This document shows, one piece after another, positions 10,286-24,737 of a stretch of DNA of 24,737 bases. Source of the DNA: a virus; IMG/VR virus record IMGVR_UViG_3300017727_000152, positions 1 through 24,737 of that record; one strand, 5' to 3'. The notes under the pieces are model-generated. The model saw only the letters and a list, made by a program, of their open reading frames with translations. It made no database searches and had not been told where the DNA came from. A program made the position numbers and the translations under genes. The stretch's first letter is position 1. Each line of letters starts with the position of its first letter.

Positions 10286-11530
10286 ATGGCAACATATAAT
10301 GTAACAGATCAAACTTCAGTAAGAAGAGTACAGTTCACCGGTGATGGTACTGCTGGTCCATTTGCCTTTGCTTTTCAAATTAATGCAACAAATCAAATAA
10401 AAGTTTATGTAGATACTACAGTTAAAACTGAAAGCTCACATTATACAGTATCATTAAATTCAGGAACTGGAGCCGGCACAGTATCTTTTACTAGTGGTAA
10501 CTTCCCTACTAGCTCACAAACTATTACATTATTAGGATCTATTCCTTTATCCAGGACATCAGTTTATACATCCGGTGGACAGCTAACGTCAGCAAGTCTT
10601 GAAGATGACTTTGATACAAATATGTTTGTTCACCAGCAAACCAATGAAGAGCTTAATAGATCACTAAGACTTGCCGAGCATGATACTGTATCCGGTGCAG
10701 ATATGACCTTGCCGGTAAAAGCTACTAGATTAGGAAAGTTACTAGGATTTAATTCTTCTACTGGTAATCCTGAAGCTTCTTTTACTATAGCCGATGGAAC
10801 CACATTAACTAACATGTCAGCTAGTATTACGGCAGTAGCCGGTATTGCTTCTAATGTGACGAGTGTAGCTGGAGTGGCAAGTAATGTAACGACTGTAGCC
10901 GGTATATCTTCTAATGTAACAACTGTAGCCGGGATAGCTAGTGATGTAACGGCTGTAGCCAATGTTGCTAGTGCTGTATCAAGTGCTGGAGATAATGCAA
11001 CTAAAGCACAGAACTACGCAATTAAGACAGATGGTGCTGTGGAATCAAGCCAATACTCAGCTAAAGCATGGGCTATTGGTGGTACTGGTGTAACAGATAC
11101 TGCTGGATCAGGAAGTGCAAAGTCCTGGGCAGTCGAAGCTGATGCAGTAGATGGATCAGAACATTCAGCAAAATCATACGCTATAAGTGGTAGTGCAATA
11201 TCAGCCGGTTCAGCAAAACAATGGGCGTTAGGTGGTGGATCAGGGTTTACAACATCAACGGCTGTATCAGGTGGATTATATTCAGCTAAGTATTATGCCG
11301 AATTAGCTTCAGCTTCTTTCGATTCATTTGATGATAAATATTTAGGTAGCAAATCTAGTGATCCATCAACAGATAATGACGGGAATGCTTTAGCAACTGG
11401 TGCAATATTTTATCATACTGGTTCATCAGTATTAAAGGTGTGGACTGGTTCTGCATGGAACGCAGTTGCAGTAGATACATCTTCATTTGCAACCAATGGC
11501 TTTAGTGTAGCTATGGCAATAGCTTTATAG
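10286..11530 (+). CDS. Tail fibre protein, T7 gp17 N-terminal type
   Basis: A 414-residue fibre protein. Residues 1-130 match the T7 tail-fibre N-terminal domain that docks the fibre to the tail: YNVTDQTSVRRVQFTGDGT at the start, 'FQINATNQIKVYVD', and SLEDDFDTNMFVHQQTNEEL near 105-125. Next come five ten-residue VAGIASNVT-type repeats (about 184-233), probably a rod. Then follow repeated 'YSAKAWAIGG / SAKSWAVEAD / HSAKSYAISG' units common in phage fibres. The C-terminus is short and ends without an obvious receptor-binding domain, so the following small fibre genes may supply the tip (inference). AGAGAGGT lies upstream of the ATG. The gene contains the CCWGG and CCGG sites typical of the rest of the genome but missing just downstream. 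Confidence 0.88.
   Translation: MATYNVTDQTSVRRVQFTGDGTAGPFAFAFQINATNQIKVYVDTTVKTESSHYTVSLNSGTGAGTVSFTSGNFPTSSQTITLLGSIPLSRTSVYTSGGQLTSASLEDDFDTNMFVHQQTNEELNRSLRLAEHDTVSGADMTLPVKATRLGKLLGFNSSTGNPEASFTIADGTTLTNMSASITAVAGIASNVTSVAGVASNVTTVAGISSNVTTVAGIASDVTAVANVASAVSSAGDNATKAQNYAIKTDGAVESSQYSAKAWAIGGTGVTDTAGSGSAKSWAVEADAVDGSEHSAKSYAISGSAISAGSAKQWALGGGSGFTTSTAVSGGLYSAKYYAELASASFDSFDDKYLGSKSSDPSTDNDGNALATGAIFYHTGSSVLKVWTGSAWNAVAVDTSSFATNGFSVAMAIAL
10835..10984 (+). repeat. Five tandem 30-bp degenerate repeats in the tail fibre gene
   Basis: Five in-frame units of 30 bp encode VAGIASNVTS, VAGVASNVTT, VAGISSNVTT, VAGIASDVTA and VANVASAVSS. The units differ at many third positions, so the repetition is kept at protein level and is not a recent slippage event. 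A fibrous trimeric rod with a ten-residue period is the likely role. Confidence 0.85.
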
Positions 11531-11539
11531 GAGTAAAAT

Positions 11540-11869
11540 ATGGCACAAAATTTTAAACAAATAAAAATGAGGAACATTGGTACTAGTGCCACAGACATTC
11601 CTGATGGAGCAAACTTTCCTAGTGGCTTTCATACTCTGATTGGATTGAACATGGCTAACACCACAGCCAACGCCATAACAATATCAGCATATGTTCAAGC
11701 TAGTTCAGCAAATTATTACATAATTAAAGACATGACAATTCCAAGTGGATCAGCTTTTACACATGATTCAAAGATTGTTTTGTTGAGTGGTGACAGATTG
11801 TTCTTTGTAAGTGATACAGCAACATCATTAGACGTTATCGCAAGTTATGTAGAAAACATTAGTACATAG
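11540..11869 (+). CDS. Small beta-rich tail-associated protein, unknown function
   Basis: A 109-residue protein with AGGAG 8 nt before the ATG. It is predicted beta-rich, with alternating polar and apolar residues (e.g. 'YYIIKDMTIPSGSAF', 'DRLFFVSDTATSLDVIASY'), no membrane segment and no cysteines. The pattern, including the 'ASYVE' ending, resembles small structural proteins that follow fibre genes in many marine phages. I do not recognise a specific family. It begins the composition-shifted cassette and is followed 8 nt later by an MPFIG fibre gene. A baseplate, tail-decoration or fibre-connector role is plausible but unproven. Confidence 0.6.
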   Translation: MAQNFKQIKMRNIGTSATDIPDGANFPSGFHTLIGLNMANTTANAITISAYVQASSANYYIIKDMTIPSGSAFTHDSKIVLLSGDRLFFVSDTATSLDVIASYVENIST

Positions 11870-11877
11870 GATTTGAT

Positions 11878-12699
11878 ATGCCTTTTATTGGAAACACACC
11901 TGACGTAAACTTTACAAGCTTTGCCAAGCAAGATTTAACTGGTGTTACTGGCAGTCCTGCTAAAAGAGGATATACCTTAACTCATGCAGTAGCCAATGCA
12001 AATGAGATTGAAGTCTTTGTTAACAACGTAAGACAAGAGCCAACAGATGCTTATACAGTAAATGGTACTGGTTTAACTATGACTGGTGATGTTGAAACTA
12101 CAGATGATTTTTACATTATTTATTTAGGCAAAGCCATACAAACAACTGTTCCACCTGATGGCTCTGTAAGCACAGCCAAGATAGCTAGTAGTGCAGTAGA
12201 CCTTACATCAAAGGTAACTGGTGTATTGCCAGTAGCTAATTCACAAACAAACACACCAGCATTTTTGGCAAAGATGTCAGGTGACCAAACCTTAACAGAT
12301 GAAGCTGAAAATAAAGTTCAGTTTGATACAGAAGTATTTGATACAGATGGTAAATATGACCACGCAACAAATTATAGATTTACACCTACAGTAGCAGGAA
12401 CATATTTCATATTTGCTCAAGCACATGGAAAATCTAATGCTAATGGTCAACTAGCAGATTTGAGAATAATAATTAAAAAGAATGGAACAAGTTTATATTC
12501 TACAAGACACAACCCTGCAACTAATTATGCAAATCAAATAGCTTTAAATATACAGATAATGGATATAGCAAATACTACTGACTATTATGAGGTATTTTTA
12601 TTTATTAATGACACTAATACTGGAACTGCACCAACTATAGAACATGACGAAAATGGTGTTGCAAGTTGGTTTGGTGCATATAAGTTGATAGGAGTTTAG
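11878..12699 (+). CDS. Fibre/receptor-binding protein with C1q-like C-terminus
   Basis: A 273-residue protein with two parts. The N-terminal part (1-120) begins MPFIGNTPD and includes 'EVFVNNVRQEPTDAYTVNG' and PDGSVSTAKIASSAVD, a layout shared with the gene at 13355 and with many phage fibre proteins. The C-terminal part (about 125-273) has the C1q/TNF-like beta-sandwich pattern 'KVQFDTEVFD...YRFTPTVAGTYFIFAQ', ending in WFGAYKLIGV. C1q-like domains are common as trimeric binding tips on phage tails. AGGA lies about 6 nt before the ATG. Likely a receptor-binding or tail-tip adhesin; the ligand is unknown. Confidence 0.72.
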   Translation: MPFIGNTPDVNFTSFAKQDLTGVTGSPAKRGYTLTHAVANANEIEVFVNNVRQEPTDAYTVNGTGLTMTGDVETTDDFYIIYLGKAIQTTVPPDGSVSTAKIASSAVDLTSKVTGVLPVANSQTNTPAFLAKMSGDQTLTDEAENKVQFDTEVFDTDGKYDHATNYRFTPTVAGTYFIFAQAHGKSNANGQLADLRIIIKKNGTSLYSTRHNPATNYANQIALNIQIMDIANTTDYYEVFLFINDTNTGTAPTIEHDENGVASWFGAYKLIGV

Positions 12700-12700
12700 A

Positions 12701-13057
12701 ATGGCATTAAGCAAAATTCAAGCTGAGTCCATGAACCTAGCAGACACCTATGCATTTAGTGGAACTGTGAGTGGTGTTGGTGCAATAGGTCAAGGTCAAA
12801 CAACTACAACACCTACTAGGGCATTAAATACTGTTTACACTAATACAACTGGTAGAAGCATAGAAGTCCATGTAAGTTTTTATTACTCAGGTGGTGCTGT
12901 ACAATTTGGTGTAGAGATTGATGGTATAAATACTATACTTCAATCAGGTGATCATGGTGCTTGGGCTTCTGCTCAATTTATAGTTCGTAATGGTGGAACT
13001 TACAAAATACCAAGTCTGACTCATACTGCAAAGGTTTGGTATGAATTATCAACATAG
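12701..13057 (+). CDS. Small fibre-like structural protein
   Basis: A 118-residue protein beginning MALSKIQAESMNLADTYAF, the typical opening of phage fibre-tip proteins ('ALSKIQ.ESI.LA..FAF'). The remainder is beta-rich with no membrane segment and looks like a short C1q-like or related sandwich domain ('TGRSIEVHVSFYYSGGAVQF', 'WASAQFIVRNGGTYKI'). AGGAG lies 8 nt upstream, and the gene starts one base after the previous stop. Likely another tip or adhesin component of the cassette; the exact family is not certain. Confidence 0.62.
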   Translation: MALSKIQAESMNLADTYAFSGTVSGVGAIGQGQTTTTPTRALNTVYTNTTGRSIEVHVSFYYSGGAVQFGVEIDGINTILQSGDHGAWASAQFIVRNGGTYKIPSLTHTAKVWYELST

Positions 13058-13066
13058 GTTTAAATT

Positions 13067-13351
13067 ATGAAACATTATATAAATAACAAAACTAAAGAAG
13101 TGTATGCTTACGAAGAAGATGGTAGTCAAGACGACTATATCAAGTCAGGTTTAGTTCCTATTAGTGATACTGCTTTGGCAACATTAAGAAAAGAACAAGA
13201 ACAAGAAAGACTTGATGCTTTAACTTATGAAGAAAAAAGAAAAGCAGAGTATCCATCAATAGCAAATCAATTAGATGACTTGTATCACAATGGCATAGAT
13301 GGTTGGAAGACAACTATCAAAGCTATTAAAGACAAGCACCCAAAGGAGTAA
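13067..13351 (+). CDS. Possible tail fibre assembly chaperone-like small protein
   Basis: A 94-residue, charged, soluble protein. Its C-terminal half holds 'EEKRKAEYPSIANQLDDLYH' and 'GIDGWKTTIKAIKDKHPKE', a pattern (YPSI..QLD.LYH.G...W...I..IK.K.P) widespread in small proteins next to phage tail fibre genes. The N-terminus (MKHYINNKTKEVYAYEEDG) resembles fibre-assembly chaperones, which carry a short strand mimicking the fibre followed by a helical tail. It sits amid fibre genes, so a chaperone or fibre accessory role is likely but inferred. It differs from its neighbours in being helical and acidic/basic, not Ser/Thr/Asn-rich. Confidence 0.55.
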   Translation: MKHYINNKTKEVYAYEEDGSQDDYIKSGLVPISDTALATLRKEQEQERLDALTYEEKRKAEYPSIANQLDDLYHNGIDGWKTTIKAIKDKHPKE

Positions 13352-13354
13352 GCC

Positions 13355-13819
13355 ATGCCATTCATAGGTAATCAACCACTTACTGGGCAGTTCAATAAGC
13401 TAGATGCTATTACAGCTTCAGCTACAGACACATATGCCTTAACTAAAGGTTCAGCATCATTCAACCCTGCTACGGCAGAGCAACTAATAGTCTCTGTCAA
13501 TGGTGTTACTCAAGCACCTAATGATGCCTATAGTGTATCAGGGTCTAACATTATCTTTACAGAAACATTAAGTTCTTCAGACACTATAGATTACATCTTG
13601 GCTTTAGGTGAGGTAGGCAATTCAGTTGTACCTACAGATGGGTCTGTTACTGGGGATAAGTTTAGTTCTACTGTCTATAGAGATGGCATCAGGATTAATG
13701 GAAGTTCAGCTACTGACAATGTAACAATAGCTAGTGGTGAAAGAGCAATGGTTGCAGGGGATTACACAATTCCCACAAACAAAACATTAACAGTAAATGG
13801 AGTATTGACCATTGTCTAA
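13355..13819 (+). CDS. MPFIG-type fibre protein
   Basis: A 154-residue fibre-type protein whose N-terminus is related to that of the 11878 gene: MPFIGN, then 'EQLIVSVNGVTQAPNDAYSV', a hydrophobic 'IDYILALGEVGNSV' and VPTDGSVTGDKF. It ends with 'DYTIPTNKTLTVNGVLTIV', a short beta-strand tail common in phage fibre tips. There is no C1q-like domain of its own; the next gene, which starts inside the last codons in another frame (TTG 13812), may supply it. That raises the possibility that the two are a split version of the two-part 11878 protein. AAGGAG lies 6-7 nt upstream. Confidence 0.66.
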   Translation: MPFIGNQPLTGQFNKLDAITASATDTYALTKGSASFNPATAEQLIVSVNGVTQAPNDAYSVSGSNIIFTETLSSSDTIDYILALGEVGNSVVPTDGSVTGDKFSSTVYRDGIRINGSSATDNVTIASGERAMVAGDYTIPTNKTLTVNGVLTIV

Positions 13820-14369
13820 ATTATTTGTTGACGAGATTCAACCCAAAACTACTGGTGGTAACGTAACCTTACACGAGGGTAGTATTGTTAAAATGTTATA
13901 CACACAGTTTGACGGAACTAATAGTGTTGCAGTTAGTGCAAATACTGATGTTGTATTAACCGACTTAACTGTAACAGTTACTCCTACTTCTGCCACTAGT
14001 AAATTTAGGCTAGAGGGTCAAGTATATGGAGAGTGGTCTGTTAGAGATGCAACTTGGGATAGCACAGTATTTTTCTTTAGAGACACTACAAAACTTGCCC
14101 ACCCAACAGCAGGGAGTAGAAACTGTGGAGTTGGTGGTATGTTTTTAAGCCATGAATCAGATAGTGCTAGTACACCAGAGGGTTCTGCAATGTTTCAATA
14201 CTTTGATGCTCCTAATACGACGTCTAATATTACTTACAAAGTAGGTATAAGAACTAATAATAATTATACTTTTTATTTAAATAGAACAGTAAGTGATGCT
14301 GATACAGTAGGTTATGAAAGATTTGTTTCATCAATCTGTGTAACAGAAATAAAGGGAGCATCATCATGA
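13812..14369 (+). CDS. Fibre-tip protein, C1q-like beta-sandwich
   Basis: A 185-residue protein starting at TTG 13812, with GGAG at 13799-13802 upstream, overlapping the previous gene by 8 nt. It begins MSKLFVDEIQPKTTGG, an opening typical of marine phage fibre-tip proteins. It then shows a beta-rich body with 'VTPTSATSKFRLEGQVYGEW' and a terminal 'YERFVSSICVTEIKGASS'. The 'P.S..SKF.......' and 'I...EIKG' elements recur in the genes at 14939 and 15456, so the three share a fold. Likely receptor-binding or tip function. Two cysteines (GSRNCGVGG and SSICVTE) are unusual in the cassette. Confidence 0.65.
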   Translation: MSKLFVDEIQPKTTGGNVTLHEGSIVKMLYTQFDGTNSVAVSANTDVVLTDLTVTVTPTSATSKFRLEGQVYGEWSVRDATWDSTVFFFRDTTKLAHPTAGSRNCGVGGMFLSHESDSASTPEGSAMFQYFDAPNTTSNITYKVGIRTNNNYTFYLNRTVSDADTVGYERFVSSICVTEIKGASS

Positions 14370-14929
14370 GTAGTAAACTAGGTGTGCAGAACATAGCACA
14401 CACAAACGGCACAAATGCTATGACTATTAGTAGTGGTGGTGTAACTGCATTTACCTCTGACCCTTTTAATAGTGTAATAGAAGTTTGGGATTATGGTACA
14501 ACAAATGCATCAATAGCTAATGCAACAGTATTGAGTGGGTGGGCTAGACAAACTAGTGGTTTATTGCCAAATAAGAATGGTGGCATGAGTGAGAGTAGTG
14601 GTATTTGGACTTTCCCATCTACTGGTGTTTGGAGTGCAAGTATACAATTCAATATTTATGCAACTGGTGCTGTTCCTTGGGCAGGTATACAAATATCTCA
14701 AACTGAAAATAATTCTAGTTATACTAATGTAAGGTCAGCATATACAAACATTTATGCAAATGGCACTTATAGTAATCTTGTAATTAATTACATTGTTAAT
14801 ATAACAAATACATCTAATCAAAAAATAAAATTTGAAACTAATACTGCTAGTAATGTTATTGTTCAGACAACTGGTTCAGGTTCAGCATCTACTTTTGTTC
14901 AATTTATTAAACTATGTCCGTCAGTATAG
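14366..14929 (+). CDS. Fibre-tip protein, C1q-like
   Basis: A 187-residue protein joined to the previous gene by an ATGA overlap, with GGGAG at 14354-14358. It opens MSSKLGVQNIAHTNGTNAM, another recurrent fibre-tip N-terminus ('LGVQNI.H.NGT.A'). A beta-sandwich-like body follows with 'SSGIWTFPSTGVWSASIQF', the C1q-like strand pattern in which an aromatic residue follows a Gly turn, and the end is 'STFVQFIKLCPSV'. It is probably a tail-tip adhesin. The body differs from that of the preceding gene, so the two are not simple duplicates. Confidence 0.64.
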   Translation: MSSKLGVQNIAHTNGTNAMTISSGGVTAFTSDPFNSVIEVWDYGTTNASIANATVLSGWARQTSGLLPNKNGGMSESSGIWTFPSTGVWSASIQFNIYATGAVPWAGIQISQTENNSSYTNVRSAYTNIYANGTYSNLVINYIVNITNTSNQKIKFETNTASNVIVQTTGSGSASTFVQFIKLCPSV

Positions 14930-14938
14930 GAGGATAAC

Positions 14939-15454
14939 ATGACATCAATTCTTAAAGTAGACAACCTCCAAGATGCTAGTGGTTCTGGCACTCCTTATAT
15001 TAAAGGTGCTGTCTTAGATGTTTACCAACATACCAGTTCAACACAAACATCAGGAAATTCTACAGCAAATTATAATAGTACTGGTTTATTCTTAACACTA
15101 ACGCCAAAAAGCAGTGCAAGTAAATTCTTAGTAACCTTTCATGGTGCAGTTCATGGTAATACTGCAGATGGATATGTAGTTGCTAACATAGTTGTTAATC
15201 CTACAAGTTCAACTGATATTAATACAGTAATGACTGGTGGAACTCTTATAACTGACCAAACATATGGAATGGCACACATTAATATTGTTAGTAGTGTTTA
15301 TGTAAGTCAGTTAAGTGCTTCAATTTTACATTCTCCTAACACAACTTCACCAGTTACTTACAATGTTGTATTTAAAAGGGCTGTAAGAGGCGTTACTTTT
15401 TGGTCGATTAATAATACATTGACAACACTAACTGCAATGGAAATAGGAGGATAA
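14939..15454 (+). CDS. Fibre-tip protein, beta-sandwich
   Basis: A 171-residue protein with a strong TAGGAGG site 5 nt before its ATG. It opens MTSILKVDNLQDASGSGTPY, a very common start of marine phage fibre-tip proteins ('S.LKVD.I.DASG.G.I...G'). The body includes 'TPKSSASKFLVTFHGAVHGN' and 'SPNTTSPVTYNVVFKRAV', the same strand elements found in the genes at 13812 and 15456. It is soluble and Ser/Thr/Asn-rich. Likely a receptor-binding or tip subunit, and another member of the tandem set of related adhesins. Confidence 0.66.
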   Translation: MTSILKVDNLQDASGSGTPYIKGAVLDVYQHTSSTQTSGNSTANYNSTGLFLTLTPKSSASKFLVTFHGAVHGNTADGYVVANIVVNPTSSTDINTVMTGGTLITDQTYGMAHINIVSSVYVSQLSASILHSPNTTSPVTYNVVFKRAVRGVTFWSINNTLTTLTAMEIGG

Positions 15455-15455
15455 T

Positions 15456-15914
15456 ATGCCACTCACAAAACTAAACTCAGCAAGTGTCATTGAACGTCTT
15501 CCAGTTGGTAGTGTGTTGCAGACAGTAGAGGCTCAATCACAATCATCAACCACAGAACCAACTACTAGCTATGCTGATGTTAATGGAACATCTATAACTA
15601 TAACACCAACAAGCACATCAAGTAAGATTTTACTTATATGGAATACTGGTGGCATGGGTACTGGTATTAATAATTCTATTCGATTTAAAGTATTTAGAAA
15701 TTCAACAGAAGTCAGAGATTTAAAAAGATATGGTTATATAACTACTGGTTGGAGTGCAGTACCAATAGCTATTCAATATTTAGATTCACCTGCAACAACT
15801 TCTTCAGTTACATACAAACTACAATGTGCAACTCAAAATGATGGTGATTTTAGAATCAATAATGAGGCTAGTACAAATTCTATGGTTGTAATTGCTCAGG
15901 AGATTAAAGGTTAA
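15456..15914 (+). CDS. Fibre-tip protein, beta-sandwich
   Basis: A 152-residue protein preceded by an identical AGGAGGATAA ribosome-site block to that of 14939. It opens MPLTKLNSASVIERLPVGSV, a standard fibre-tip start, then shows the shared elements 'TPTSTSSKILLIWNTGG', 'SPATTSSVTYKLQCATQND' and a terminal 'MVVIAQEIKG'. The C-terminal sandwich is clearly related to those at 13812 and 14939. It is the last fibre gene, and its stop overlaps the start of a short membrane-protein gene. The identical ribosome sites suggest cassette duplication. Confidence 0.66.
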   Translation: MPLTKLNSASVIERLPVGSVLQTVEAQSQSSTTEPTTSYADVNGTSITITPTSTSSKILLIWNTGGMGTGINNSIRFKVFRNSTEVRDLKRYGYITTGWSAVPIAIQYLDSPATTSSVTYKLQCATQNDGDFRINNEASTNSMVVIAQEIKG

Positions 15915-17799: not shown

Positions 17800-18251
17800 T
17801 GAACCTATCTAAAAATTTTAGTGTCGATGAGTTAATTAAAAGTCAGACAGCAGAACGTAAAGGGATTGATAATTCACCTAATGCAGATGCTTTATATAAC
17901 CTAAGACTATTAGCTGAAAATATTTTACAGCCAGTTAGAGATCAATTTGGTCCCTTCATTGTATCAAGTGGATATAGGTCAACAGCTTTATGCGAAGCAA
18001 TAGGATCTAAACCAACAAGCCAACATGCCTTTGGACAAGCCGGAGACTTCGAGGTTCCTGGAATAGATAACTATGATCTGTGTAAATGGATAGAAGATAA
18101 CCTGGAGTTTGATCAGCTAATATTAGAATGTTATAAGCCAGGGTATCCGAATAGTGGATGGGTTCATTGCTCTACAGATGAAAGCCCCCGGAAAGAACTA
18201 CTAACGTATGATCGGACCAGGGGCTATCGTAGTGGATTAATTAGGGATTAG
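17799..18251 (+). CDS. Endolysin, peptidase M15 (D-Ala-D-Ala carboxypeptidase-like)
   Basis: A 150-residue protein of the peptidase M15A type. The zinc motif SxHxxGxAxD is present as SQHAFGQAGD (H76, D83), and a second zinc histidine lies in GWVHCS (H123). Upstream comes the conserved 'FIVSSGYRST' (S-x-YR) element. The N-terminal 'LSKNFSVDELIKSQTA' matches the usual start of these endolysins. Such enzymes cut the peptide cross-links of peptidoglycan at the end of infection. No signal peptide is visible, so it would depend on the holin. It is the last rightward gene of the block; its final 15 bases overlap the end of the convergent leftward HTH gene. Confidence 0.87.
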   Translation: MNLSKNFSVDELIKSQTAERKGIDNSPNADALYNLRLLAENILQPVRDQFGPFIVSSGYRSTALCEAIGSKPTSQHAFGQAGDFEVPGIDNYDLCKWIEDNLEFDQLILECYKPGYPNSGWVHCSTDESPRKELLTYDRTRGYRSGLIRD

Positions 18252-18470
18252 TTCTATAGCTCTGTAACTACAGCCCCCATTGTTCTTAAATCGTTTTATA
18301 TGCCCCTTCTCATCTAGTTTGTTTATTAGATTAAAGACTGAGTTGGTTGATTTAAAACCAGCACCTATACATATCTCTTTATAGGTTGGCATATACTCAT
18401 GTTCAGCATGGTAAGCTTCTAAAAATTTTAGGACCTTGTGCTGTTTAGGTGTTAGTGGCATCTTCTGCAT
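18237..18470 (-). CDS. LexA N-terminal-type winged-helix DNA-binding protein
   Basis: A 77-residue stand-alone HTH protein. It matches the LexA DNA-binding domain: MPLTPKQHKVLKFLEAY, 'YMPTYKEICIGAGFKSTNSV' and 'LINKLDEKGHIKR', then 'YRAIELIPN'. The LexA protease half (Ala-Gly site, Ser/Lys dyad) is absent, so it is not expected to self-cleave. I chose the ATG at 18470 because GGGAG sits 8 nt upstream; an in-frame ATG at 18488 would add six residues without a ribosome site. It overlaps the end of the RecT-like gene and the end of the convergent endolysin gene. A repressor or regulator of the leftward operon, or of host SOS-type promoters, is possible but inferred. Confidence 0.75.
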   Translation of the reverse strand: MQKMPLTPKQHKVLKFLEAYHAEHEYMPTYKEICIGAGFKSTNSVFNLINKLDEKGHIKRFKNNGGCSYRAIELIPN

Positions 18471-19350
18471 CGAACAATCTCCCTTCATCCATTTCTATTT
18501 CTTCTATTAAACCGAAGTCAGCTTCCCTTAGTTGCTCTAACATCTCCATGTTATTAGTTTTTAGTTCAGCATATTTTTTTTGCTTAGTTTGGAAATCCCA
18601 CATTTTAGATCGGTCAATTAAATCCATGAAATATTTATACTCTAAAACAAAATCATTTTTATTTTTGACGTGAAGAGGTTTTTTACCTGGAATATTTAAT
18701 ACCCATTCAAGCTCCTTTTTAGGCTCTTCAGGAGGTGTAAGCTCTCCAACTATAGCATCAATGCTTCTAGCATCCTTATCAAACTTAGAGGTACTCTCTT
18801 GGTCTTGTACAGCACCTTTAGGAACCGGATAGTCTTGAGCTTCCTCGCTGGTAATCAATCCACCGATAACATCAGCAAATGCATCACGCAAAGCAAAGCC
18901 CCTAGCCCTCATCTGAAGCATACGATCCGGGTATTGTTGCCAAGGCTTTCTGTTAAGTAAGCCAGCTTTCTGAGCATTGCCCATAGAAAAGCTAGAACTT
19001 ATAACTTCTGTTTCTCCATTAGGTGCTAACCTTGATACAACACAAGTTGCCTTCATATTGGCACCCTCACCTTCAATGGATTCTTTCACAGACAAACATC
19101 TCTTATCATTTCGGACCATGGCTAGTAAGGCATCACCAAAGATTGACGGCTTACCATTTATGACAGCTATGTTCTGCATCGCCTGGAAAGGTGCAAGCCC
19201 AAGTGAAGCCCCGGCAGATACAGCCAAAAAGATATTGGCTGGTTTGTTCTTGTAATTGTCCGGAACCAAGTCAGACTTAGCAAACATTTCAGATATCCTG
19301 AGTGCCTGGTCTACATCAGTTGGGATTAAATTTGTTCTTAAATTATTCAT
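18445..19350 (-). CDS. recT: RecT-type single-strand annealing protein
   Basis: A 301-residue protein with the RecT-family core in its first 175 residues: 'ISEMFAKSDLVPDNYKNKPA', 'SLGLAPFQAMQNIAVINGKP' (about 49-68), a central 'GEGANMKATCVVSR', then 'PWQQYPDRMLQMRARGFALR' (136-155) and DAFADVIGGLITSEE. The 'G.DP..AM.N..V..GKP' and 'W...P..ML..RA......' blocks are the usual RecT signatures. These proteins anneal complementary single strands produced by a partner exonuclease. The C-terminal 90 residues are acidic and less conserved. The gene overlaps the exonuclease gene by 8 nt and has GAGGAGATAAG before its ATG, so the two are probably co-expressed as a recombination pair. Confidence 0.83.
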   Translation of the reverse strand: MNNLRTNLIPTDVDQALRISEMFAKSDLVPDNYKNKPANIFLAVSAGASLGLAPFQAMQNIAVINGKPSIFGDALLAMVRNDKRCLSVKESIEGEGANMKATCVVSRLAPNGETEVISSSFSMGNAQKAGLLNRKPWQQYPDRMLQMRARGFALRDAFADVIGGLITSEEAQDYPVPKGAVQDQESTSKFDKDARSIDAIVGELTPPEEPKKELEWVLNIPGKKPLHVKNKNDFVLEYKYFMDLIDRSKMWDFQTKQKKYAELKTNNMEMLEQLREADFGLIEEIEMDEGRLFDAEDATNT

Positions 19351-21247: not shown

Positions 21248-21736
21248 TCATGTAAATCTCTTTTGCATTAATTTCTCAAACCGAACTAGATTGTCAAAGG
21301 CTGTTCCAATAGTTGATTTAGCAATACTCTGCCTCCATCGGCAGTAGTCTTCCATTTTCTGTAAAAGTATTGGTGAGGCTTGACATGCGACAGTTGAGCC
21401 TTGTCTTTTAACAACGATATAACCTTCAGCTTCACACTCATTAATCATGGTCGAAATGGTTTGTCTATTGCTATGCATTTCAGTAACAAGCTCTGAAATC
21501 GTGTAAAACCTATTGGTATATGTTGCATACGTCATCCAACGAGAAAAAGCATGTCTAATTGGTGTTGAATTGAAATATCTTTGTACCTTGCTTAACATTC
21601 TAGTTTGTCTTGCCTGATGCAATGTCATTTCTATTTCAATAACTTTCATATTATAATCATGCAGTAAATGAGCATGTATTTCATCAACAGAATTGTGTAC
21701 GCTTGAATTGTCGCAACATGTTTTAGGCTTATTCAT
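21248..21736 (-). CDS. Winged-helix DNA-binding protein (MarR-like fold)
   Basis: A 162-residue protein. Residues 76-118 form a winged helix-turn-helix: 'RFYTISELVTEMHSNRQTIS' with a recognition helix around 88-104, then 'GYIVVKRQGSTVACQASP' as the wing. Helical segments lie before (about 20-70) and after (121-158), as expected for a dimer. The N-terminus contains a CC pair and three histidines (CCDNSSVHNS, IHAHLLHD), possibly metal-binding, though this is a guess. It overlaps the serine recombinase stop by one base, with GGAGAAG before the ATG. Probably a transcription regulator of the phage, perhaps of recombinase or early genes. Confidence 0.65.
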   Translation of the reverse strand: MNKPKTCCDNSSVHNSVDEIHAHLLHDYNMKVIEIEMTLHQARQTRMLSKVQRYFNSTPIRHAFSRWMTYATYTNRFYTISELVTEMHSNRQTISTMINECEAEGYIVVKRQGSTVACQASPILLQKMEDYCRWRQSIAKSTIGTAFDNLVRFEKLMQKRFT

Positions 21737-22482
21737 TATTTCTTCTCCAATCTTTTAGCTATATTTCTCACCGATGATGCGTGCCAGTTGCCACCTCTTG
21801 CAGTCGGTACACCAAGGTCATTTAACTTTTGTGCTATCTCTCGGTAGCTTTCACCACCTCTTGATAAAGCTGATACTGTAGGAGCTATTTTAGTAGCAAA
21901 GTTATCAGCAATCGTTTTAACGGCTGTCGAAGCTGAAGCCCTGGCTTTATCCATTTCGTCATGGATGCCAAGCTTAGTAATTCGATTGCCATTAGATGAG
22001 GTAATACTACCCTTCTCTCTTAGCTCTTTCTTGATCCTTTCAAGACCTGACTTAGTACGCTCTGAAATCTTATCCCTTTCAAAGTCAGCAAACATTGCCT
22101 TCATATAGAAGTTCTGCTTGTTCTCAGATATTGTAGGATCATTGCAGACAACTAGTTTAACAGCATTCTTTTTAAGAATAGTTTCAAAGAACTTTAATGT
22201 ATGCCAGGTGGTACGACTGAATCTATCCAGGTCAGCTACAATGATAGTGCCATTCATAGCTTTGGCTGTCTCGATGCATTCGTTAAGCTTTGGTCTATGC
22301 TCGGGAGCTATCTTACCTGATATGCCCTCCTCCTTAAACCAAACGACTGAATGATTACCACCATTAAGCCATTTAAGTATCTCCATTTCTTGCCTTGCTA
22401 CATCCTGGTCATCTGTCGATACCCTGACGTAGGCAAAGTAAGTGCCGGCATGTTCTTGCCCGGCTGTGGTTTTAACTGCCAT
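21736..22482 (-). CDS. Serine recombinase (resolvase/invertase family)
   Basis: A 248-residue site-specific recombinase. The N-terminal catalytic domain (about 14-150) shows FAYVRVSTDDQ with the likely nucleophile S22 and R20, 'EEGISGK', VADLDRFSRTTWH with R87 and R90, and 'ADFERDKISERTKSGLERI'. A C-terminal helix-turn-helix (about 205-245) reads 'YREIAQKLNDLGVPTARGGN' then WHASSVRNIAKRL. It lacks the long zinc and coiled-coil domains of large serine integrases (usually 450 aa or more), so it is nearer resolvases and invertases. It could act in integration, dimer resolution or DNA inversion; no crossover site was identified. AAGGAG stands 8 nt before the ATG. The catalytic residues are intact. 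Confidence 0.85.
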   Translation of the reverse strand: MAVKTTAGQEHAGTYFAYVRVSTDDQDVARQEMEILKWLNGGNHSVVWFKEEGISGKIAPEHRPKLNECIETAKAMNGTIIVADLDRFSRTTWHTLKFFETILKKNAVKLVVCNDPTISENKQNFYMKAMFADFERDKISERTKSGLERIKKELREKGSITSSNGNRITKLGIHDEMDKARASASTAVKTIADNFATKIAPTVSALSRGGESYREIAQKLNDLGVPTARGGNWHASSVRNIAKRLEKK

Positions 22483-23673: not shown

Positions 23674-23807
23674 ATCAAACTTACTGCCCCATATGCTCAA
23701 CCATAGTTAATAGACCTGATCTATCAGATGATTATATCTGCCCGGTCTGTAATCTTACAACCTTACCCGAAGAAGATGCCAATGAACATGATGAACAAGA
23801 TAGATAA
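23670..23807 (+). CDS. 45-aa zinc-ribbon protein
   Basis: A short gene in ATGA overlap with the preceding one. The peptide begins MNQTYCPICSTIVNRPDLSD and has two knuckles, C6-P-I-C9 and C24-P-V-C27, then an acidic tail ending EDANEHDEQDR. The CPxC..CPxC spacing (14 residues between knuckles) is that of a rubredoxin or zinc-ribbon fold. Function unknown; it overlaps the start of the initiator-like gene in another frame. Confidence 0.6.
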   Translation: MNQTYCPICSTIVNRPDLSDDYICPVCNLTTLPEEDANEHDEQDR

Positions 23808-24737
23808 AGTAGAGCAAATAATAGAGGCAAGGAAGCAAATCCTGGAGCTACCAAAAGATAGGATGGTTTCAGATATGCAAGCCCCCTCACCTTTTACAAC
23901 GATACCTTCAAGAGCTTTATCCGATAAGTATATATTAACTCATCCATCAGCTCTACAAGTACTGTGCGTTCTATGCTCATACGTTAATGGTGTATCAGGC
24001 ACAGCTTATCCAAACCAATACTCGGTAGCTAAAAGATTAGGTAGGTCACAGCCGGCAGTATCCAGGCAGTTCAATAACCTGGTTAAATGGGGCTACATCG
24101 AGAAGATAATAAAAGAAAACCCATTAAGAGATAGAGGCAGAAAAGGTGCAACCTGGAGAGTTATATACGATCCTGAAATAACAGCCGATGAGATAGCTAT
24201 GACTACTACAGATCCAAGAGTAGAAGATAACAAGGCAGAAGATACTATGAAGGTCCTGGTCAAAGAACAAGTTAAGGAAGAGAAGAAACAAGCCAGGTTA
24301 TCAGAAGCACAACTTAAGCTAGTAGAAAGCATCACACAACGATACCTGAAGGATGAAACAGAATACTTTGCATATGGTTCTGTGTTTAATGATGTAAGCA
24401 CATACATAGCCGGTGAACAAACTATCGAAGCCTGGAATAGTATCGGTAATGGTCTATTATCACCTATCGAGAAGGGTTATTTAAAGAGCAGTAATATAAC
24501 ACCTAATGTTATAAATCGTGCAAAGCATAATGCTAAAAAGATAACACCTGATGTTATAAAACATGTAGATCGGAATAACACAAAAGATAACACTAGATGT
24601 TATACCAGTAGTGCAGAAAAGATAACGTCAGATGTTATACATAACTCTAATAATATAACTATAAATAATAGTATAATAGAAAATGCAAAAGAAATGACAA
24701 AAAGATATGCAGACATGCTGGATGCTATCATGGGAAC
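23782..24737 (+). CDS. Replication initiator-like winged-helix protein (lambda O-like), 3' partial
   Basis: An open frame runs off the right edge, so the C-terminus is missing; over 315 codons are visible. In-frame ATGs lie at 23776, 23782, 23788 and 23791; I chose 23782 for its GAAGAAG 6 nt upstream. Residues about 45-128 form a winged helix: 'LTHPSALQVLCVLCSYVNG', 'PNQYSVAKRLGRSQPAVSRQ' (recognition helix) and 'NNLVKWGYIEKI', then 'KGATWRVIYDP' as the wing. After a charged linker comes a low-complexity Asn/Ile/Lys-rich part whose DNA carries four palindromic repeats and an A+T-rich tract. In lambda, gene O has the same plan: an N-terminal DNA-binding domain and the origin inside the gene. 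No sequence identity to O is claimed. Confidence 0.7.
   Translation, partial: MNMMNKIDKVEQIIEARKQILELPKDRMVSDMQAPSPFTTIPSRALSDKYILTHPSALQVLCVLCSYVNGVSGTAYPNQYSVAKRLGRSQPAVSRQFNNLVKWGYIEKIIKENPLRDRGRKGATWRVIYDPEITADEIAMTTTDPRVEDNKAEDTMKVLVKEQVKEEKKQARLSEAQLKLVESITQRYLKDETEYFAYGSVFNDVSTYIAGEQTIEAWNSIGNGLLSPIEKGYLKSSNITPNVINRAKHNAKKITPDVIKHVDRNNTKDNTRCYTSSAEKITSDVIHNSNNITINNSIIENAKEMTKRYADMLDAIMG
24495..24639. repeat. Four 18-bp palindromic iterons, probable replication origin
   Basis: Copies at 24496-24513, 24541-24558, 24587-24604 and 24622-24639 read ATAACACCTAATGTTATA, ATAACACCTGATGTTATA, ATAACACTAGATGTTATA and ATAACGTCAGATGTTATA. Each has inverted arms ATAACA/TGTTAT around a 5-nt centre (one mismatch in the fourth). 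Copy 1 extends to 7-bp arms. Start-to-start spacing is 45, 46 and 35 nt. Copies 1, 2 and 4 share one reading frame, and copy 3 is in another, so the DNA, not the peptide, is what is conserved. A possible half-site ATAACAC lies at 24575-24581. Likely binding sites for the initiator encoded here. Confidence 0.8.
24641..24684. other. A+T-rich tract next to the iterons, candidate DNA unwinding element
   Basis: Directly after the fourth iteron, only 5 of 44 bases are G or C, and only 3 of 37 in 24648-24684. One strand is markedly purine/A-rich toward the right. In lambda-type origins such a tract beside the iterons is where the duplex opens after initiator binding. Position and composition fit that role; function is inferred. 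Confidence 0.6.

Follow-up and report, generated by a model that had tools for sequence, protein, structure and literature searches.

The initiator gene and its palindromic array

The window, by which we mean the whole stretch of 24,737 nucleotides analysed here, stops inside a gene encoding a winged-helix protein, the putative replication initiator of the phage, whose full-length counterparts in relatives have 415 aa. The features of this locus are:

23776..24737, plus strand: initiator gene, truncated by the window end (likely start 23776; the longest ORF runs from 23728)
23893..24165, plus strand: winged-helix DNA-binding domain, proposed reader of the repeats (AlphaFold2 model, Foldseek, joint swap with the repeats)
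24043..24081, plus strand: recognition helix RSQPAVSRQFNNL (alignments)
24495..24513, no strand: iteron 1, TATAACACCTAATGTTATA (palindrome and consensus scans)
24540..24558, no strand: iteron 2, GATAACACCTGATGTTATA (palindrome and consensus scans)
24586..24604, no strand: iteron 3, GATAACACTAGATGTTATA (reading frame differs from the other copies)
24621..24639, no strand: iteron 4, GATAACGTCAGATGTTATA (palindrome and consensus scans)
24640..24684, no strand: A+T-rich tract, proposed DNA unwinding element (lowest-GC 44-nt windows)
24667..24737, plus strand: start of the helical C-terminal domain, putative helicase recruiter (fold from the AlphaFold2 model)

The initiator matched PF13730 (HTH_36) with an E-value of 3e-9 and 36.9 bits, above the curated cut-off of 25, while its matches to PHROG replication-initiation entries were weak (E 1e-4 to 0.03). 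An AlphaFold model built from 15 sequences had a low overall confidence (mean pLDDT 55), with a folded winged helix at about residues 56-146 (pLDDT ~70-87 over most of it), whose best Foldseek folds were MarR/ArsR-like regulators (E ~0.01), and a helical C-terminal domain with pLDDT ~74-86 over residues 321-390. Confidence was low for residues 231-313, including the iteron-encoded part, and this stretch is probably disordered.

Four near-palindromes of 19 bp with the form ATAAC-7-GTTAT, 35-46 bp apart, occupy positions 24495-24639, within the last 250 nt of the window. The preliminary description of this DNA had reported four 18-bp palindromes; the palindromes stand, but their length is 17 bp in the strict form (6+5+6, ATAACA-5-TGTTAT) or 19 bp when the next base on each side is counted. 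Iteron 4 carries a single mismatch (ATAACG). By scanning the window with the 19-bp consensus, allowing ≤3 mismatches, we found 5 matches where 0.05 were expected, a number that none of 100 window shuffles reached. Also, the observed arm forms four inverted pairs, whereas no 5-nt arm formed more than two when the last 1 kb was resampled 2000 times under a Markov-1 model. The array is thus real and far beyond chance. The whole-window motif scan that the same description had proposed as a check uncovered no good copy elsewhere in the 24.7 kb, the next best being 1041-1059 with 3 mismatches, and a pattern with a 6-nt spacer gave matches at chance level only. As had also been noticed, one copy is off-frame: iterons 1, 2 and 4 share a reading frame, from which iteron 3 is shifted.

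Directly after the array comes the A+T tract. Of all 44-nt windows in the sequence, the two with the lowest GC start at 24635 and 24641 and have 5 G/C each, in agreement with the 44-nt tract of 5 G/C described before. Within this tract, AACTCTAATAATATAACTATA recurred without a single change in an exact-match scan of related contigs, over a range of 62-100% identity between the initiator proteins. A turn in GC skew lies near 22.9 kb; since gene orientation turns at the same place, this proves nothing about an origin.

Arrays in related initiator genes

We then examined about 80 related initiator genes, starting from 16 contigs with close initiator relatives, to which wider searches added dozens more; the near family consists of the window, L001-L016 and L045. 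A palindrome array was found in about 70 of these genes, between the winged-helix and the C-terminal domains, with an A+T minimum just after it in most of them. In about ten relatives the array is degenerate and does not pass the strict test, which counts against the origin model presented below. The arms are of the ATAAC, ACAAC or ACAAG type, and by inspection L043 and L077-L079 have GTAAC/GTTAC-like arms. In the near family some members have ATAAC arms and others ACAAC, every array being homogeneous. Wider relatives mostly have ACAAG arms with a 6-nt spacer, usually in three copies, often with one off-frame. When one arm of a palindrome changes, so does the other, and nearly every genome shows the change in all of its copies. 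Moreover, copy 3 of the window and its counterpart in L006 are read in different frames while the palindrome is kept. Given that copies lie in mixed frames and that arms and copies change in step, selection acts at the DNA level, as the preliminary description had argued from the off-frame copy.

Two observations concern single arrays. In ACAAC relatives, the half-sites of one and the same origin are 5, 7 or 8 nt apart (L006:2802-2930 and L010:1990-2120), which is odd for a rigid dimer and counts against the origin model presented below. In L014 (355-380), the frame of the initiator is shifted by a 1-base deletion within iteron 1, possibly an artefact of assembly.

The winged-helix domain and the repeats are exchanged together

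By comparing gene alignments in 60-column steps for the pairs L003/L008 and L004/L010, we could follow which parts of the gene change with the repeats. L003 and L008 are 70-81% identical in the winged-helix part, 98% in the middle, 17-83% in the repeats and 100% just after them. L004 and L010 differ in the same pattern, with 80-96% identity in the middle. Hence two otherwise near-identical pairs differ only in the winged-helix domain and in the palindromes. Related phages have thus replaced the proposed reader domain along with the DNA that it would recognise, with the match between them kept, and this joint exchange is the strongest evidence that the winged-helix domain would be what reads the repeats.

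Other candidate readers were rejected. The ribbon-helix-helix protein is 100% identical across the pairs with different repeats and therefore cannot read them. WHD2 and TerS were also ruled out, as neither follows the repeats.

DnaA boxes in the ACAAG relatives

Of the 38 ACAAG relatives with called arrays, 29 have a perfect DnaA box, TGTGGATAA, placed 16-30 bp ahead of their first repeat and always in one orientation and one frame, whereas none was found outside the related initiator genes in 293,718 bp. Such a box is expected next to an origin, but not next to operators or hairpin arrays. In the window's own subfamily we found no DnaA box, which counts against the origin reading.

Many ACAAG phages also encode a DnaA domain-IV protein (PF08299) and the window's subfamily does not. 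In L036 (4751-5242) and L041 (1571-2038), this small HTH protein (E ~1e-15) is encoded near the initiator gene. We considered a tie between these phage genes and the DnaA boxes and rejected it, the link not being tight.

A probable replication origin

Taking these observations together, we consider it very probable that 24495-24684 is the replication origin of the phage, located within its own initiator gene. Dimers of the winged-helix initiator would bind the four palindromes, and the resulting complex would strain and open the adjoining A+T tract. Host helicase and polymerase could then enter at the opened tract, probably through the C-terminal helical domain of the initiator. A search of five records, 25-36 kb long and in part fragments, found neither a DnaB helicase nor a family A DNA polymerase; therefore, host replication enzymes are needed. 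The analysis locates a probable origin for an uncultured marine phage group.

Other readings of the array were weighed against this one. First, the palindromes could be an operator array through which the winged-helix protein autoregulates its transcription, with no role in an origin. Joint exchange links protein and sites in this case too, and MarR-like folds are mostly repressors. However, the array lies ~700 bp inside the gene instead of at a promoter, the lowest-GC stretch comes next and relatives have a consensus DnaA box beside the array, so that we regard an operator as improbable. Second, the palindromes could serve as hairpins of the mRNA, given that the region folds better than shuffled sequence (z = -3.7) and that loop length varies. 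Any palindrome folds, though, and RNA folding consequently does not separate the readings. Changes in the arms run parallel in the different copies and accompany those of the winged-helix domain, half-changed G-U-type copies are absent from the near family, and DnaA boxes adjoin the arrays in relatives, all of which makes hairpins very unlikely. Third, terminase genes just downstream and a ribbon-helix-helix gene upstream would suit a site for packaging or partition with the small terminase or the ribbon-helix-helix protein as its reader, a reading to which we give hardly any credit: the latter protein does not vary with the repeats, and for TerS the identity is 97% in the pair L004 and L010, whose repeats differ, but 92% in the pair L009 and L010, whose repeats are the same. 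Finally, that the repeats were selected as linker peptide repeats (ITPDVI) can be dismissed with near certainty, even though 3 of the 4 copies share one frame, for copy 3 and its counterparts read otherwise (DNTRCY vs TTPDVV), as does the ACAAG set (APAC vs PQLV), with the DNA palindrome kept in both cases, and the segment is predicted to be disordered.

A candidate recognition code

Returning to the proposed origin and its reader, we compared residue x7 of the recognition helix with base 5 of the arm in 54 loci. Arg or Lys at x7 went with C at base 5 in 16 of 16 loci, and Gln, Glu or Leu with G in 38 of 38. The rule was stated as a prediction before we looked at loci from a DNA-side scan, which yielded 14 more initiator genes with ACAAC arrays, every one of them with Arg or Lys at x7. 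The residue therefore agrees with the base in all 68 loci, a match that rests on only two independent changes on the tree (p = 0.5), for which reason the x7 rule remains a candidate. As for base 2, a wing residue (RDRG with ATAAC) fits it in the near family, where there are few lineages. A rule by which Pro or Gln in the helix sets base 2 was dropped, since L045 has a class-A-like helix (QPA) with ACAAC repeats, a combination that also counts against the origin model.

Together, these data allow us to propose, tentatively, a natural code in which x7 (R/K vs Q/E/L) would set base 5 (C vs G), a further helix or wing position would set base 2 (T vs C), and the dimer would tolerate 5 to 8 nt between half-sites. 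If this code were true, exchange of domain and repeats would create replication compatibility groups among co-infecting marine phages. The natural series of matched initiator-origin pairs, with few differences between them, makes recognition specificity directly testable.

Genome context and the relationship to MEP301

In relatives the initiator gene is followed by SSB, TerS and TerL, and L007 adds a head-tail connecting protein (PF12236) and a capsid protein after TerL. SSB is the next recognised gene and belongs to the same operon, where no P-type gene was recognised. T7-type tail and internal virion proteins are present.

The nearest cultured relative by terminase is Methylophilales phage MEP301 (TerL 66% identical), which encodes tail tubular proteins A and B, a recombinase, a YqaJ exonuclease, an ERF-family protein, RusA and SSB, without DNA or RNA polymerase (PMC8024684). 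Given this absence of polymerases, dependence on host polymerase is normal for the lineage. Like the phage studied here, MEP301 combines the recombinase, YqaJ exonuclease, ERF-family protein and SSB with a T7-type tail. The idea that a lambda-type plan beside T7-type tail genes points to an unusual replication mode for such a virion was thus overstated, as MEP301 has a similar plan. Its HTH protein is 29% identical over part of the initiator; the gene (gp55) has ~200 codons, and on reading the region no palindrome array was evident.

Several other window genes deserve mention, all on the minus strand unless a run is given. A second winged-helix protein (21248-21736) is 68-78% identical between relatives, compared to >91% for the flanking proteins; its evolution is thus much faster than theirs, and it does not follow the repeats. 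Next to it, 21736-22482 encodes a serine recombinase of 248 residues, with Mpi-type invertases as its closest matches. A large serine integrase was not seen, an observation that the authors of the MEP301 study also made for their phage. An 83-residue protein (18237-18488) consists of a LexA-like DNA-binding domain only. Finally, the region 10286-15914 holds a run of small tail-fibre-like genes, two of which begin with MPFIGN.

Comparison with iteron plasmids and lambda

Origins of iteron plasmids contain a DnaA box, iterons and an A+T-rich region, and the ACAAG relatives share this order. In contrast to those of the plasmids, the phage sites are palindromic and lie inside the initiator gene, and the window's subfamily lacks the DnaA box.

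The layout is also that of the lambda origin, and of its relatives in Stx phages, where iterons in mixed frames inside the initiator gene precede an A+T tract. In lambda, the iterons are the binding sites of O proteins, and unwinding requires the A+T tract (PMC7466680). When lambda was put through the same scan as a control, gene O gave four iterons, spread over three frames, and the lowest-GC stretch directly behind them, which bears out the lambda-like layout claimed earlier; the window likewise has iterons and A+T tract within the initiator gene, the lambda-O-type trait. The N-terminal part of O binds DNA, as predicted here for the window initiator. The two systems differ in that lambda iterons are 20-24 bp apart (35-46 bp in the window), in that a P-type gene follows in lambda and SSB is the next recognised gene here, where a helicase loader of unfamiliar sequence may also be encoded, and in the DnaA boxes of the relatives studied here. 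Kinship to lambda O found no support: the initiator has no match to PF04492 (Phage_rep_O) up to E 10 (lambda O control 5.7e-36), and its hhalign probability against the lambda O family is 0.14%, compared to 99.1% for a true distant relative. Because homology is not detectable, we do not file the initiator in the lambda O family, and the best reading by analogy is that the locus would work like a lambda-type origin. The lambda plan, an origin in the initiator gene, would thus also occur with an initiator that shows no detectable relationship to lambda O.
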